A program made the position numbers and the translations under genes. A stretch of DNA of 64,000 nucleotides from Coriobacteriia bacterium. Its GTDB lineage: Bacteria > Actinomycetota > Coriobacteriia > Anaerosomatales > Anaerosomataceae. The first letter of the stretch is position 1. Each line of letters starts with the position of its first letter. Below the pieces are notes generated by a model. That model made no database searches and was not told where the DNA came from. It saw only the letters and a program-made list of their open reading frames with translations. Of the stretch, positions 48,885-56,403 are shown piece after piece. The stretch is taken from positions 124,001 to 188,000 of the forward strand of contig JAUSBK010000008.1 of the NCBI GenBank assembly GCA_030652115.1, in the 5' to 3' direction.

Positions 48885-49637
48885 ATGGGCGGCATCCTCG
48901 ATCTCATCTTCCCGCCGAGGTGCGCCGGCTGCGACCGTCCGGGCACGCTCCTGTGCGATGCCTGTCGCGGGACGCTTCCGCTCATCGATCCCGGCTCGGC
49001 GTGTGCGCGCTGCGGGGCGCCGATGCTCGGCGCGTCTGGTCCGTGCGCCGAGTGCCGCGGTCGTGCGTTCGCGTTCTCGGTAGCGCGCTGTGCCGCGCGC
49101 CTCGAGCCCCCGGTCTCGCGTGCCGTCGTGATGCTCAAGGACAGCGGCGAGCGCCGCTATGCCGCCGTCCTGGCGGAGCTGCTCGCGACAGCTGCTGACG
49201 GCTGGCTCGCGCCGGGAGCCGTTCTCGTGCCTGCGCCAGCTTCGCCTGCGGCGGTGCGCCGACGCGGTTTCGACCACGCCGCGGACATCACGCGTGCGCT
49301 CGGGCGGCTCACAGGCGCCGAGGTGCAGTGCCTGCTGCGCGCCACGGGCAGTGCCGACCAGCGGGCCCTCGGCAGGGAAGCACGCTTCGCGAACCGTGCG
49401 ACCGCGTTCAGGCTGGCCGGGCCGCGCGAGATCGCAGCCGGCGCGTCGCTGCCCGAGCGGGTCGTGCTCGTCGACGACGTGTTCACGACCGGCGCCACAC
49501 TCGATGCCGCCGCTCGTGTGCTGCGCGGTGCGGGCGTGGCCGAGGTACGGGCGCTTGCGGTTGCACGCGCGTGCGAGCACGTCGCTTGCGTGAGCGTATC
49601 CGAAAGGATACAATCCGAAGGAGCGTCGCTTGATTGA
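48885..49637 (+). CDS. comF: ComF family phosphoribosyltransferase-like protein
   Basis: The 250-residue protein has the N-terminal zinc finger (CAGC, CDAC, CARC, CAEC) and the phosphoribosyltransferase fold with VLVPAPASPAAVRRRGFDH and the PRPP loop VVLVDDVFTTGATLDAAARVL. ComF family members are needed for DNA uptake in competent bacteria; the exact activity is unclear. Its last 8 bases overlap the toxin gene, and its 3' end contains the promoter and operator of that pair. ComF-HPF neighbourhoods are common; here HPF lies 6 kb downstream. Confidence 0.88.
   Translation: MGGILDLIFPPRCAGCDRPGTLLCDACRGTLPLIDPGSACARCGAPMLGASGPCAECRGRAFAFSVARCAARLEPPVSRAVVMLKDSGERRYAAVLAELLATAADGWLAPGAVLVPAPASPAAVRRRGFDHAADITRALGRLTGAEVQCLLRATGSADQRALGREARFANRATAFRLAGPREIAAGASLPERVVLVDDVFTTGATLDAAARVLRGAGVAEVRALAVARACEHVACVSVSERIQSEGASLD
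49586..49614 (+). promoter_or_regulatory. promoter/operator of the second toxin-antitoxin pair, inside comF
   Basis: TTGCGT (49586-49591), 17-base spacer, TACAAT (49609-49614). A perfect palindrome with arms GTATCC (49596-49601) and GGATAC (49606-49611) around GAAA covers the -10 region: a classic autoregulation site for the HTH antitoxin. Confidence 0.6.
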
Positions 49638-49920
49638 GGTTCGACAGACCCGGGACTTCCGCGACTGGCTGAGGCAACTCAAGGACCCGGATGCCAGAGA
49701 CCGCATCGTGATGAGACTGCGCCGTCTGTCGGTGGGTAATCCGGGCGATGTGAAGCCGGTCGGCGGCGGCGTCTGGGAGATGAGGATCGACTGCGGGCCG
49801 GGCTACCGACTGTACTTCACCTGGCGAGGTGATCAGGTGGTTGTGCTGCTGGCTGGCGGTAACAAGTCGACGCAGCAGCGCGACATCAGGCGGGCACAGG
49901 AACTGGCGTGGCGACCGTGA
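49630..49920 (+). CDS. RelE/HigB-like addiction module toxin (COG3657 type)
   Basis: The 96-residue protein is a RelE-superfamily toxin of the type once called addiction module killer protein: it starts IEVRQTRDFRDWLRQLKDPDARDRIVMRL, then DVKPVGGGVWEMRIDCGPGYRLYF and VVLLAGGNKSTQQRDIRRAQELA. It probably cleaves ribosome-bound mRNA. A TTG start at 49630 is supported by AAGGAG 6-7 bases away. It overlaps comF by 8 bases and the antitoxin by 13 bases. Confidence 0.88.
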   Translation: MIEVRQTRDFRDWLRQLKDPDARDRIVMRLRRLSVGNPGDVKPVGGGVWEMRIDCGPGYRLYFTWRGDQVVVLLAGGNKSTQQRDIRRAQELAWRP

Positions 49921-50222
49921 GGAGCAAGAGAGTGCGGAAGCATAAGCTGAAGACCTACCCCTGGGACGTTGTCGACCACCTCGACTCCGACGAGGCGATT
50001 GCCCGGTATCTCGACTTGGTCCTCGAGGAGGACGATCCGGTCCTGCTGGCAGCTGCCCTCGGCGACGTCGCTCGCGCCAAAGGCATGACGAGTGTCTCGC
50101 GCGAGACCGGACTCGGTCGCGAGAGCCTCTACAAGGCGCTGTCCAGCTCGGGCAACCCCGAGTTCGCCACGGTGCACAAGGTGATCCGCTCCTTCGGGCT
50201 CAAGCTGCACGTGACGACCTAG
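49908..50222 (+). CDS. HTH antitoxin (HI1419-type addiction module antidote)
   Basis: The 104-residue antitoxin has the family order KTYPWDVVDHLDSDEAIARYLDLVLEEDDPVLLAAALGDVARAKGMTSV, then the helix-turn-helix RETGLGRESLYKALSSSGNPEFATVHKVIRSFGLKL. It is expected to bind the toxin and the GTATCC/GGATAC operator. The GTG at 49908 is inside the toxin gene; later GTGs are possible. The first 15 residues are strongly basic (RSKRVRKHKLK), longer than in typical members. Confidence 0.88.
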   Translation: MATVRSKRVRKHKLKTYPWDVVDHLDSDEAIARYLDLVLEEDDPVLLAAALGDVARAKGMTSVSRETGLGRESLYKALSSSGNPEFATVHKVIRSFGLKLHVTT

Positions 50223-50261: not shown

Positions 50262-50520
50262 TGCTTTCACCCGGGTCTGTGGTTGCGGGCGCGCAAGCGT
50301 CCTAGTCCAAGGTAGGCGCGGCCGAAAGGACCCACGTAAGCGCGAGGCCAAGCCTCGTCGTGAGCATGGCGCGCCTTAGGGGTAAGTCGTACCGTCCGCG
50401 GCAGCCGAGAGGTCGCTGCGGGCGAGAGGGCCGGTAGTGAGACCCAGTCTTGCGGAAGCTCCGGTATGCGGGTGTGGGGCCAAAGACCAGGTCAGCCGGG
50501 TGAAAGCATCGAGGGGCACA
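50262..50520 (+). ncRNA. candidate structured non-coding RNA or leader upstream of the amino-acid transporter
   Basis: This 313-bp gap between the antitoxin and the binding-protein gene has no credible ORF but strong folding potential. 50287-50294 (GGGCGCGC) can pair with 50369-50376; inside it is CGAGGC-CAA-GCCTCG (50343-50357). A 10-11-bp stem with GAGA loop occupies 50396-50421. Downstream GACCC...GGGT and GGCC pairings flank an A/G-rich segment ending near the ribosome-binding site GAAGGGAG. No T-box, lysine, SAM, glycine or cobalamin consensus was recognised. Because it lies between comF and hpf, a raiA-type RNA is one possibility; a novel riboswitch-like leader is another. Confidence 0.4.
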
Positions 50521-50535: not shown

Positions 50536-51375
50536 ATGACAACCGCACGTCGCCTGCTCGCGATCGTTCTCGCCGCCGCGCTCGTTCTTGCGATGGCCGG
50601 CTGCAAGAAGGAGGCCGAGGAGCCTGCGCTCCAGCCCAAGGTCGCTCCGCCTGTGATCTCCACCGAAGGCGTCCTCAAGGTGGGTGTCGACCTCGGTTAT
50701 CCGCCGTTCGCGGGTGTGGACAACGACAAGAACGCCGGCATAGACGTGGACATTGCCGCCGCGATCGCCGAGCGGCTTGGCCTCAAGGTGGAGCTCGTGG
50801 ACGTGAAGCCCAGCGAGCTGGCCGAGGCGCTCAACGATGGTACGGTCGACATCGCGCTCGGCGGGATCTCGATCACCGACGCAGTGACGGCCGACGTATC
50901 CACCGCCGGCTCGTACCTGATCGACGGCCCCGGCATCTTCTCGGTGGTAGCGACCGACTCAGTACCCACCACACTCACTGCAGCGGACCTCCCGGGCAAG
51001 CGCATTGCCGCGCAGCAGGGAAGCCCCGCGTTCTGGACGCTCGAGAGCGACTACGGCGAGGGCTTTGCGACCCAGTACCCGTCGCTCAAGGCAGCATTCG
51101 ACGCGCTTGAGGCAGGCGAGGTCGATCTGGTCGTAGGCGACTCGGCAGTCGGCGCCTACATCGCGCGCGACTACGCCCGCGTATCGTTCGTCGGGCAGTT
51201 CGGGGCGGCGCAGCCGCTCGGCATCGCGGTCAAGAAAGACGCCACCGAACTTGAGGCCGTCATCCGGGAGGCCGTGGACGCGCTCGCCGCCGACGGCACT
51301 CTCGACACGATCCGCACCAAGTGGTTGGGGCATCTTCCGTCGCTCGAGGTGCCGGTCGAGGAATCCACGAACTGA
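50536..51375 (+). CDS. extracytoplasmic solute-binding protein family 3 (lipoprotein), canonical order
   Basis: The 279-residue lipoprotein has a signal peptide with lipobox LAMAGC (Cys23) and a family 3 binding fold in normal order: LKVGVDLGYPPFAGVDN, VDIAAAIAERLGLKVEL, then the hinge and TLTAADLPGKRIAAQQGSPA and the closing ADGTLDTIRTKWLG. The usual Arg that holds the amino-acid carboxylate (in TITPERA-type motifs) is missing: here SITDAVTADVS. The ligand may therefore not be a standard amino acid, or binding may be weak. ATG at 50536 after GAAGGGAG. It precedes a permuted binding protein, permease and ATPase. Confidence 0.85.
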   Translation: MTTARRLLAIVLAAALVLAMAGCKKEAEEPALQPKVAPPVISTEGVLKVGVDLGYPPFAGVDNDKNAGIDVDIAAAIAERLGLKVELVDVKPSELAEALNDGTVDIALGGISITDAVTADVSTAGSYLIDGPGIFSVVATDSVPTTLTAADLPGKRIAAQQGSPAFWTLESDYGEGFATQYPSLKAAFDALEAGEVDLVVGDSAVGAYIARDYARVSFVGQFGAAQPLGIAVKKDATELEAVIREAVDALAADGTLDTIRTKWLGHLPSLEVPVEESTN

Positions 51376-51467: not shown

Positions 51468-52343
51468 ATGAGCAAGACCAAGAAGTTCGTTGCGCTGTTC
51501 CTGGTCTTCGCGCTGGCGCTCAGCATGGTTGCGCTGAGCGGCTGCACGGACGATGGCGAGGACACGGACGAGGGCACCGAAACCACCGAGCGCGCTGCGA
51601 TCACCAGCGTTGACGATCTCGGCGAAGGCGACAAGGTCGGCGTCCAGTCTGGTACCACGGGCGAGGGTTGGGCCAAGGAAAACCTCGAGCCCAACGGTGT
51701 CGAGGTCGTTCCTTACGACGACATCCTGCTTGCCTTCTCGGCGCTGCAGGCTGGCGACGTTGACGGCGTTATCAACGACCTTCCGATCAGCCAGGACATC
51801 GTCAAGGACGAGACCCGTGGCCTCGAGATCGTTGAAGAGATCAAGACCGACGAGACCTATGGCTTTGCATTCAACAAAGACGACGCCGCGCTCCGCGACG
51901 CCGTCAACTGGGCGCTTGCCGAGTGCATCGCCGATGGCACGTACGACGAGGTCTACGAGACCTGGTTCGGCGCAGCCCCGATGTCGTATCCCGAGGCTGA
52001 GAGCGGCGTGACCGCCAAGCCCGCGGATGCTCCCGCGCTGATCACCGCCGGCAAGATCGTCGTCGGCTCCGACACCGCGTTCCCGCCGTTCGAGAACGTC
52101 GAGGGTGGCGAGACGGTGGGCTTCGACGTCGACCTGCTGAATGCGATCGGCGAGAAGCTCGGCCTCACGGTCGAGTTCAAGAGCTACAAGTTCGACGCGC
52201 TCATCACGGGCGTTCAGGCCGGTACCGAGTTCGATCTGGTCGCCTCGGCGATGACGATCACTGACGAGCGCAAGCAGTCGGTCGACTTCTCCGATCCGTA
52301 CATCAACTCGAACCAGTCGCTGGCGGTCAAGAAGGCCGAGTAG
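51468..52343 (+). CDS. circularly permuted family 3 solute-binding lipoprotein
   Basis: A lipoprotein (lipobox ALSGC, Cys26, then an acidic Asp/Glu/Thr linker) of 291 residues. The order of the binding domain is inverted relative to the family: residues 44-170 are the part that is normally second (DDLGEGDKVGVQSGTTGEG, VVPYDDILLAFSALQAG, VINDLPIS, YDEVYETWFG), and residues 175-291 the part that is normally first (KIVVGSDTAFPPFENVEGG, VGFDVDLLNAIGEKLGL, SAMTITDERKQSVDFSDPY). Both halves are complete; the break is at the hinge, and the ligand residues Arg (TDERK) and Asp (NDLP) are kept. It should bind a polar amino acid. A TATAGT -10 box lies at 51399-51404; a hairpin follows the gene. Confidence 0.88.
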   Translation: MSKTKKFVALFLVFALALSMVALSGCTDDGEDTDEGTETTERAAITSVDDLGEGDKVGVQSGTTGEGWAKENLEPNGVEVVPYDDILLAFSALQAGDVDGVINDLPISQDIVKDETRGLEIVEEIKTDETYGFAFNKDDAALRDAVNWALAECIADGTYDEVYETWFGAAPMSYPEAESGVTAKPADAPALITAGKIVVGSDTAFPPFENVEGGETVGFDVDLLNAIGEKLGLTVEFKSYKFDALITGVQAGTEFDLVASAMTITDERKQSVDFSDPYINSNQSLAVKKAE

Positions 52344-52440: not shown

Positions 52441-53766
52441 ATGTCGAAGTTCCGCAATTCGGTGGGGTACGTGGTCGCGGGGATCGTCGCGGTGGTGCTG
52501 GTCGCGATGCTACTCACGATGACCGGTCCGGAACGGGTGCTCTTCGAGCGGAATGCGCCGCGCGGCAAGAAGGGCACCGTAAGCGACATCTACGTGATCT
52601 CGCCCACGCGCGATGAGATCACCATCGGCAAGTCGCAGACCAACGTGGTCGCCGATCTTGCCGAGATCGACGACAACCTCGCCGCTACGATCGTCCGCAC
52701 GCCGGCCGGTGCCGGACTGGGCAAGGGCGAGTGGGTCCTCAGCGCCGAGGAGACCAGCCCCACGCCGGTGCTGCTCAACGGCGACGAGATCGAGGGGACA
52801 CCCACGCTCGCGGACGGGGACGTCATCACCGTCGGAGGCTCCGATGTGACGTTCACCGTGGGGCGCACGGGCATCCTCGGCGGACTCGACTGGTGGGAAG
52901 CGGGCAAGATCTCGCATCTCTACGCCTCGCCGAAGATCATTGCCGAGGCATTCCCCATTGTGTTGGCGGCCTTCCCCATCTCGCTTGTGGCGGTGCTCGT
53001 CTCCTTCGGGCTGGCGATTCCGGGCGGCCTCATGCTCGCCTTCATGAAGATGGCGAAGAGCCGATGGTTCCGCATGCCGGCAACGCTTTACGTGGACTTC
53101 ATCCGCGGCACGCCGATCTTCCTGCAGATCCTGCTCGTGTTCTTCGGCCTCACGCTTCTGCCGCCGTGGCAGGCGCTCGTCAAGGCGGTGCCTGCGATCA
53201 ACGAGAGCGGCCTGTTCGGCGTGGACAACTCCATGTGGATCCGGGCGTTCGTGGTCTTGAGCTTCAACTCGGCGGCATACATGGCCGAGATCTTCCGCGC
53301 GGGCATCCAGTCCATCAGCAAGGGGCAGATGGAAGCGGCGCGTTCGCTCGGCATGACCACCGCCGCCGCCATGACCTTTGTGATCATCCCGCAGACAGTG
53401 CGGCGCATCCTGCCGACGATGATGTCCGAGTTCATCCTGCTGTTCAAAGACACGTCGCTGTTCGCGGCCGTTGGTATGGGTGAGATGGTCATGAGGGCGC
53501 GTGAAGTGGCGTCGAGCACGCTCAACGTCTCGCCGTACCTGCTCGCCGCGGGCTTCTACCTCGTGATCACCATCCCGCTCGGCCGTCTCGTCCAGCAGCT
53601 CGAGAACCGGCTCGCGCGCTCGGAGGGTGGCGGCGCAGCCACCTTCGAGAAGAGCGAGAAGGACAACCTCGCGGCAGCTGCGGCCAAGAAGGCCGCTGCC
53701 GAGGCTGCTGCAGCGGAGAAACTCAGGATCGACGATGCTGCCCACCGACACGCGACCGGCCGATAG
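52441..53766 (+). CDS. polar amino-acid ABC permease with an extracytoplasmic FHA-like domain
   Basis: The 441-residue protein combines three parts. Residues 8-28 form a membrane helix (VGYVVAGIVAVVLVAMLLTM). Residues about 50-145 look like a forkhead-associated fold: ISPTRDEITIGKS, GEWVLSAEE, PVLLNGDEIEG, LADGDVITVGGSDVTFTVG; the phosphothreonine residues are not conserved (GK for GR, no Ser/His). Residues about 165-400 are a HisM/GlnP permease with LYVDFIRGTPIFLQ and the ATPase-contacting EAARSLGMTTAAA. An Ala/Lys/Glu-rich tail follows. N-in topology places the FHA-like domain outside, next to the binding protein. ATG at 52441 with TAGGAGGG. Confidence 0.85.
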   Translation: MSKFRNSVGYVVAGIVAVVLVAMLLTMTGPERVLFERNAPRGKKGTVSDIYVISPTRDEITIGKSQTNVVADLAEIDDNLAATIVRTPAGAGLGKGEWVLSAEETSPTPVLLNGDEIEGTPTLADGDVITVGGSDVTFTVGRTGILGGLDWWEAGKISHLYASPKIIAEAFPIVLAAFPISLVAVLVSFGLAIPGGLMLAFMKMAKSRWFRMPATLYVDFIRGTPIFLQILLVFFGLTLLPPWQALVKAVPAINESGLFGVDNSMWIRAFVVLSFNSAAYMAEIFRAGIQSISKGQMEAARSLGMTTAAAMTFVIIPQTVRRILPTMMSEFILLFKDTSLFAAVGMGEMVMRAREVASSTLNVSPYLLAAGFYLVITIPLGRLVQQLENRLARSEGGGAATFEKSEKDNLAAAAAKKAAAEAAAAEKLRIDDAAHRHATGR

Positions 53767-53772
53767 GGGGCG

Positions 53773-54540
53773 ATGACGATGAGCGAACACACCACCACCC
53801 CCGCGTACAGCGGCCCGATCGTCCGGATCCGCAACCTCAGGAAGTGCTTCGGCGAGGTTGAAGTGCTCCGCGACGTGGACATGGACGTGCAGAAGGGCGA
53901 GGTTGTGGTCATTCTCGGGCCGAGCGGCTCGGGCAAGTCGACGATGCTTCGCTGCGTGAACCGGCTCGAGGAGCCCACCGGCGGGGAGATCTGGCTCGAG
54001 GACATCAAGGTGAACGACCCCAAGACGAACATCAACGAGGTGCGCGAGCGCATCGGCATGGTGTTCCAGCAGTTCAACTTGTTCCCGCACCTCACGGCCA
54101 AAGACAACGTGATGCTGGCGCAGCGCAAGGTTCTCAACCGCTCAAAGCACGAGGCCGAGCGCATCGCGCTCGAGCAACTCGAGCGCGTGGGCCTTGGCGA
54201 CCGCGTGGACTACTTCCCGGCGCAGCTTTCCGGCGGCCAGCAGCAGCGCGTGGCGATCGCCCGCGCGCTTGCGATGGACCCGCACGTGATGCTCTTCGAC
54301 GAGGTCACTTCGGCACTCGACCCGGAGCTCGTGCGCGGCGTGCTCGACGTCATGAAGGAACTCGCCAAGGCTGGCATGACGATGCTCGTGGTCACCCACG
54401 AGATGGGCTTTGCCCGCGATGTGGCGAGCCGCGCCGTGTTCATGGACGGCGGCGTGATCGTGGAGGAGGGCACTCCCTCCGAGGTGTTCGACCATCCGCG
54501 GAACGAGCGCACGAAGGACTTCCTCGGCCACATCTCATAA
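53773..54540 (+). CDS. polar amino-acid ABC transporter ATP-binding protein
   Basis: The 255-residue ATPase has Walker [10 protein letters not shown], the Q-loop [11 protein letters not shown], the signature [15 protein letters not shown], Walker [17 protein letters not shown] and the switch His in VVTHEMGFA. It belongs to the GlnQ/HisP group and energises the permease 6 bp upstream. Cytoplasmic. The operon of two binding proteins, permease and ATPase is a complete importer. Confidence 0.95.
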
Positions 54541-55860: not shown

Positions 55861-56403
55861 ATGCAGATGATCGTGAAGGGCCGCCGCATGGACGTTACCC
55901 CTGCTATCCGGGAGTACGCCGAGGAGAAGATCGGGCGCGTCACGAAGATTCTGAACAGTCAGCTCATGAGCGCAGAAGTAGAGCTCTACACCGAGCGCAA
56001 CAAGTCTATAGAGAAGGGTCAGGTCGCCGAAGTAACGGTCTACACCAAGGGGCACGTGATCCGGGCCAAGGAGGCGGCATCGGATCTCTTCGCCGCCATC
56101 GACCTGGTAAGTGAGAAGCTCGAGAGCCAGGTGCGCAGGTACAAGGACAAGACCGTGGACCGGCACACCAAGGGCGTGTCGGCGGCCGCGATTGCGCCCG
56201 CTCCCGCACCGGAAGAGCTTGACGAGCCGGCCATCGTGAAGACCAAGACGCTTGCCACCAAGCCGATGAGCACCGATGAGGCGATTCTGCAGATGGAACT
56301 CCTGGGCCACGACTTCTTCGTCTTCCGATCCGAGGACACGGAAGGGACCAACGTTCTGTACCGCCGCAACGACGGCGACTACGGGCTCATCACATCAGCG
56401 TGA
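55861..56403 (+). CDS. hpf: long-form ribosome hibernation promoting factor
   Basis: The long HPF joins two 70S ribosomes into an inactive 100S dimer in stationary phase. The 180-residue protein has the N-terminal RaiA/YfiA domain (MQMIVKGRRMDVTPAIREYAEEKIGRVTK, AEVTVYTKGHVIRAKEAASDLFAAIDLVSEKLESQVRRYKDK style) and, after an Ala/Pro linker, the dimerising C-terminal domain (PMSTDEAILQMELLGHDFFVFRSEDT...YRRNDGDYGLI). AAGGAGG precedes the ATG. A -10-like CATAGT (55828-55833) and TATGTT lie upstream, so it probably has its own promoter. Confidence 0.95.
   Translation: MQMIVKGRRMDVTPAIREYAEEKIGRVTKILNSQLMSAEVELYTERNKSIEKGQVAEVTVYTKGHVIRAKEAASDLFAAIDLVSEKLESQVRRYKDKTVDRHTKGVSAAAIAPAPAPEELDEPAIVKTKTLATKPMSTDEAILQMELLGHDFFVFRSEDTEGTNVLYRRNDGDYGLITSA

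Follow-up and report, generated by a model that had tools for sequence, protein, structure and literature searches.

Does the window analysed here, a stretch of 64,000 nucleotides from a Coriobacteriia bacterium, encode a solute-binding protein of family 3 that was circularly permuted in nature, and, if so, how did such a protein arise and what would it do? A preliminary description of the DNA, made from the sequence alone, had proposed that in one lipoprotein gene the two halves of the binding domain are swapped, with the break at the hinge, both ligand residues retained and a lipobox at the new N-terminus. The gene and its parts are as follows.

51468–52343, + strand: permuted family 3 lipoprotein gene (open reading frame, 291 aa)
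51468–51545, + strand: signal peptide and lipobox, residues 1–26, with Cys26 in the motif LSGC (from the sequence; kept in orthologues)
51546–51599, + strand: acidic tether from the lipid-anchored Cys to lobe 2, residues 27–44 (from the sequence; low pLDDT)
51600–51971, + strand: first segment, residues 45–168, lobe 2 plus the C-terminal helix pair of lobe 1 (profile and structure-sequence matches, model)
51972–52049, + strand: new 26-aa linker from the old C-terminus to the old N-terminus, residues 169–194 (sequence likeness, model)
52050–52340, + strand: second segment, residues 195–291, main part of lobe 1 (profile and structure-sequence matches, model)

Three sequence comparisons agree on the swapped order. 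In a Pfam scan the protein scored 134.4 bits against PF00497 (cut-off 26.4) in a match split into two stretches, the best of which placed the start of the profile (positions 1–93) on residues 197–290, near the C-terminus. In a phmmer search of solved structures, the N-terminal part of AncQR (4zv1) corresponded to residues 195–290 and its C-terminal part to residues 44–168. TIGR01096 likewise matched in two stretches; in a control, the canonical sister of genome G042 gave a single collinear stretch (62–291 = 15–250). Because the start of the profile and the C-terminal part are matched in swapped places, the protein, which lacks the canonical segment order of PF00497, is on these alignments a permuted derivative of family 3 rather than a canonical member. 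(Note that the Pfam scan listed SBP_bac_3, Lig_chan-Glu_bd and SBP_bac_5, and that at an E-value of 0.001 it contained no match to the OpuAC family, so that by sequence the protein is not of OpuAC type.)

The first segment corresponds to the C-terminal part of a canonical family 3 protein and ends after the C-terminal helix pair (..YETWFG); the second corresponds to the N-terminal part and stops directly past the hinge strand (..NQSLAVKKAE, then the stop codon). As judged from these end points, the break falls where the chain first passes from one lobe to the other, at the hinge, as had been proposed. The proposed swap of two halves holds for their order and not for the idea of whole lobes: since the first segment comprises lobe 2 together with the closing helices of lobe 1, this is a true circular permutation and not an exchange of lobes. 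The ligand pair of family 3, an Arg in lobe 1 and an Asp in lobe 2, is present as Arg268 and Asp104. Asp104 lies in the first segment, Asp202 and Arg268 lie in the second, and all three are invariant in an alignment of 19 orthologues, so the proposal that both ligand residues are retained stands, as does that of a lipobox (LSGC) in front of lobe 2. By homology to GlnBP, the three residues presumably hold the amino and carboxylate groups of the ligand; at the positions of the GlnBP contacts Lys115 and His156 the permuted protein has Gln60 and Asn103.

Structure prediction, which had been named beforehand as a check, gave a compact, two-lobed AlphaFold2 model (pLDDT 90.1, pTM 0.85) from an input alignment of 20 permuted proteins, close relatives for the most part; the linker was modelled at a pLDDT near 90. 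In comparisons with VIA-align, numbered with Cys26 as residue 1, model residues 17–146 matched residues 123–251 of GlnPQ SBD1 (Z 12.1, 127 residues, rmsd 2.1), and model residues 163–257 matched residues 7–97 of AncQR 4zv2 (Z 10.1, 90 residues, rmsd 1.2, 49% identity). These piecewise matches indicate a family 3 fold for each piece and a swapped order of the pieces. Because the protein is a permutant and the Foldseek comparison is sequential, full-length TM-scores were low (about 0.3–0.45 by query length) and gave no information on the fold. Few long sequential alignments spanned the full length of the model, and OpuAC gave one of them (Z 11.0, 204 residues, rmsd 5.0); middling full-length VIA-align rows for HisG, LAO (1–204) and MetQ were rejected as close relatives and read as lobe-on-lobe pseudo-symmetry. 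The predicted model thus has the two-lobed type II fold of family 3, with both halves predicted to belong to a single Venus-flytrap domain; the contrary outcome, which the preliminary description had named as fatal to its claim, was not seen.

It is unlikely, although this is the strongest of the alternatives, that the halves instead pair between chains in a domain-swapped dimer, or that the protein is a degraded paralogue with no role in binding. Engineered permuted constructs of ribose-binding protein show swapped elements (PMC10601554), and AlphaFold models are monomer predictions; against this, the confident modelling of the 26-aa linker and the pTM of 0.85 favour pairing in cis. Decay of a paralogue is opposed by the invariant ligand residues and by low dN/dS values (0.10–0.23 in pairwise comparisons of the window protein with three relatives). 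The linker evolves more loosely, with a dN/dS of up to 0.8 in one pair.

As a separate observation, PfVFT1 of Plasmodium (PDB 5jkq) was the top VIA-align match both of this model and of that of a second permuted protein, G378, described below. The alignment of 5jkq chain D with model residues 113–259 begins at the helix pair that follows lobe 2 in the permuted protein, which hints that the chain order of PfVFT1 may differ from the canonical one.

The gene of the permuted protein has the following neighbours.

50266–50504, + strand: raiA RNA motif, directly upstream of the operon (RF03072, 151.6 bits; cut-off 101.3)
50536–51375, + strand: S1, a second family 3 binding-protein gene in canonical order, without the ligand Arg (PF00497 1e-27, one stretch)
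52441–53766, + strand: permease of polar amino-acid type (BPD_transp_1 3.2e-24; TIGR01726 50.1 bits, cut-off 42.2)
53773–54540, + strand: ABC ATPase of the transporter (ABC_tran 9.6e-38)

The operon thus runs from canonical S1 through the gene of the permuted protein to those of a His/Glu/Gln/Arg-type permease and an ABC ATPase, and the adjoining permease and ATPase genes are those of a polar amino-acid ABC importer. The slot order S1, SBP2, permease, ATPase recurs at nearly all loci of the bacterium's order that are readable far enough, and the SBP2 slot is occupied by a permuted or a canonical protein, depending on the genome. The closest canonical slot-mates (in genomes G032, G038, G042, G045, G051 and G056) are about 60–78% identical to the permuted protein per half, and the canonical sisters in this slot are also lipoproteins. 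In S1, the Arg equivalent to GlnBP Arg75 is missing in every orthologue aligned, which extends to the whole set what had been noted for the gene at 50536. Because S1 lacks this residue, it is plausible from the sequences that the permuted protein is the main binder of the operon. The S1 gene is retained across the order despite the lost ligand Arg; its product may have a ligand that is not an amino acid, or may work with no ligand at all.

At its N-terminus the permease is extended by about 155 aa (52441–52905, + strand), a region that looks FHA-like by eye (ITIGKS..DDNLAATIVRT..LADGDVITVGG) and had no match in Pfam. The canonical sister operons, and some permuted operons too, have short permeases that lack this region, and a strict tie between the permutation and the extra region was rejected, the permuted operons of families f5 and f14 having short permeases. 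The raiA RNA was found at 13 of the 14 related operons scanned, whether the binding protein was permuted or canonical; according to a review, raiA RNAs often lie upstream of genes for periplasmic binding proteins (PMC11477304). Also in the neighbourhood are a comF-like gene (48885–49637) upstream of the raiA RNA, genes for a Gp49/HigB-like toxin and a HI1420-type antitoxin between these two (49630–50222, + strand), and a raiA/HPF gene (55861–56403) downstream of the operon.

A search for homologues with the same segment order, another of the checks proposed at the outset, returned full-length collinear permuted proteins from 23 of the 69 genomes of the order, in seven families and at 65–100% identity; one of the carriers, G006, is a single-contig genome. 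In each homologue, lobe 2 is preceded by a lipobox of its own and the reading frame ends past the hinge strand. The permuted gene was also found in collection records titled Coriobacteriia, Actinobacteria, Actinomycetota or Slackia. For the trees, permuted sequences were first rotated into canonical order. The 23 permuted proteins of the order formed one group in a quick tree (140 rows, SH-aLRT 88); in a more careful tree, in which 13 of the 23 were included, support for the permuted clade was moderate (89/91). In both trees this clade adjoined the canonical slot-mates of families f2, f7 and f13, and the rotated sequences nested within canonical members of family 3, as expected of descent from inside PF00497.

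Permuted family 3 proteins occur in other lineages as well. The break falls at the hinge in G382 (family f25), in the lipoprotein of G641 from another class of the phylum (L238:1236–2228, + strand) and in that of G590 (family f54; L239:4388–5530, + strand), which lies outside the class of the window. It falls one beta-alpha unit later in G378 and G415 (both f25), the former ending ..SGTTGADWVRENLM, and in G091 (f20), a recent case in a single draft genome. A Lachnospiraceae protein (L057:3939–5573, + strand) begins with a signal anchor, continues with two tandem permuted units (D2-D1-D2-D1) and is cut by the end of its contig; scanning beyond the phylum consisted of one scan of a genome collection. 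An AlphaFold2 model of G378, computed from an alignment of canonical relatives cut at the breakpoint, was again confident (pLDDT 92.2, pTM 0.83), and its residues 135–269 matched roughly the first 130 residues of several family 3 structures. The two breakpoints within f25 may reflect one event followed by a shift, or two events.

In the careful tree, the permuted proteins of f25, f20 and G641 adjoined canonical proteins of their own groups, and well-supported branches forced at least four changes of state; in a larger tree, which includes G590 and the Lachnospiraceae protein, they forced at least five. We treat G590 and the Lachnospiraceae protein as one independently permuted lineage, beside those of f25, f20 and G641. 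Could all permuted family 3 proteins nevertheless stem from one ancient permutation, spread by transfer and followed by several reversions? The hinge breakpoint common to the window clade, G382 and G641 would fit such a history. However, an AU test rejected a single clade for the 18 permuted rows of the careful tree (dlnL 588, p = 8e-34), two breakpoints exist, and permuted proteins of f25 and f20 find their nearest relatives among the canonical proteins of the respective family (70–82% identity in D1 and 66–77% in D2 for the best cases); we regard the single event as quite improbable and reject it for those 18 rows. Permutation in family 3 is probably recurrent, with at least five independent events sampled, two breakpoints and several instances in the raiA-linked operon, which together would make a natural set of canonical and permuted orthologues.

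How did the window clade come by its permuted gene? The operon has two adjacent family 3 genes, and the permuted gene might have been fused from parts of two such neighbours, for example S1 and SBP2. Yet both halves are closest to the same canonical SBP2 genes (G042, 77/68%; G032, 74/70%), as against about 30–36% identity with S1, and we therefore reject such a chimera, which we consider quite improbable. That the same few canonical proteins are nearest to both halves implies that one gene was permuted rather than two joined. A tree of the D2 half agrees with a single-gene origin; a tree of the D1 half was poorly resolved, with the permuted clade not cleanly recovered, seven changes and few starred branches.

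The linker points to the route. In the example WFGAAPMSYPEAESGVTAKPADAPALITAGK, its start resembles the canonical C-terminal tail WFGAEPLSIP, the point at which canonical genes stop, and its end resembles the canonical stretch before lobe 1 (..TLTPGK), a match made by eye in a second half of low complexity. Linkers of the other permuted lineages also start like the tails of their own canonical sisters and end like their tethers; that of G091, for example, begins WIDADNPPTLP as against the canonical WIDADNPPTMP. An old C-terminal tail followed by an old N-terminal tether is what a head-to-tail duplication with fusion and trimming would leave, and this resemblance suggests that the canonical order came before the permuted one. 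In such a course, an ordinary family 3 binding-protein gene would have been duplicated in tandem and the copies fused in frame, after which the second signal peptide, lobe 1 of the first copy and lobe 2 of the second would have been lost. The resulting chain would run from the tether through lobe 2 and the C-terminal helices of lobe 1 to the linker and the remainder of lobe 1. No fused duplicate intermediate was found in the genomes of the order; tandem canonical domains do occur in the class (G160).

Although the source genome comes in 14 contigs and draft or metagenome assemblies are numerous among its relatives, a misjoin by assembly or binning, which had been named at the outset as the other outcome that would undo the claim, is hardly credible and is rejected for the window clade, given the conserved operon slot, the purifying selection and the occurrence of one order at 65–100% identity in 23 genomes of seven families, one of them a single contig. 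The order being common to at least 23 related genomes, and similar swaps having arisen independently in other lineages, the rearrangement is real and natural and not a sequencing error.

Taken together, the gene very probably encodes the lipid-anchored amino-acid-binding protein of a polar amino-acid ABC importer, derived from an ordinary family 3 protein by duplication, fusion and trimming and folding as one Venus flytrap. By sequence and model it is predicted to be, most likely, a working amino-acid-binding lipoprotein that is tethered through the opposite lobe. The chain would still fold as a single flytrap whose ligand site lies where the two lobes face each other. From its homology, its conserved residues and its operon we infer that an amino acid would be captured there and handed to the adjoining permease. 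We likewise infer the amino-acid nature of the ligand, the duplication route and any benefit of the new tether point. The main physical change would be that the lipid tether, 18–26 residues long in the ten permuted proteins measured, enters lobe 2 at the hinge and not lobe 1. In the paper on the structure of TpMglB-2, the possibility was raised that a permuted chain relieves tethering strain (PMC4990184), and by analogy this could apply to the permuted family 3 protein.

Many natural circular permutations have been recognised between distant proteins, the event itself long erased. Here the route and the breakpoints can be read because each half is about 60–78% identical to a canonical protein in the same operon slot and the linker resembles the old termini. 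If our reading is true, pairs of canonical and permuted orthologues would make it possible to measure how chain order affects folding, tethering and transport. Annotation by domain match hides permuted proteins, which pass as ordinary family 3 members.

With canonical family 3 proteins (GlnH/GlnBP, ArtJ, LAO/HisJ and the SBDs of GlnPQ), the permuted protein shares homology in both halves, the predicted lobes, the Asp/Arg pair and the ABC operon; it differs in the order of its segments, its termini at the hinge, the tether into lobe 2 and the extra linker. The preliminary description knew of no natural case in this family, and a search of the open-access literature likewise found no description of one; precedents exist in other classes of binding protein. 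TpMglB-2 (Tp0684) of Treponema pallidum is a natural circular permutant for which a ‘Type Ic / Cluster Bc’ was proposed; it is reported to retain ligand binding and closure, and its authors left open an origin of the permuted part from another gene (PMC4990184). It too is a lipid-anchored, naturally permuted ABC binding protein, but it has the type I sugar-binding fold (cluster B), another breakpoint and no close sequence relation to the protein described here, which matches family 3 and other type II proteins and so falls outside Type Ic / Cluster Bc. Glycine-betaine-binding proteins, molybdate-binding proteins and CysB are circular permutants of one another, in pairs below 24% identity that were recognised by structure (PMC2395249). 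They share with our case a permuted order inside the binding-protein fold; unlike them, the permuted and canonical orthologues here are about 60–78% identical per half and occupy one operon slot. Tandem domains of the GlnPQ type resemble the fused state of the duplication route in having adjoining family 3 domains in one chain, but there two full canonical domains are fused to the permease, whereas here one permuted domain stands alone. The family 3 case is distinguished by how little its canonical and permuted forms have diverged and by the repeated origin of the permuted order.
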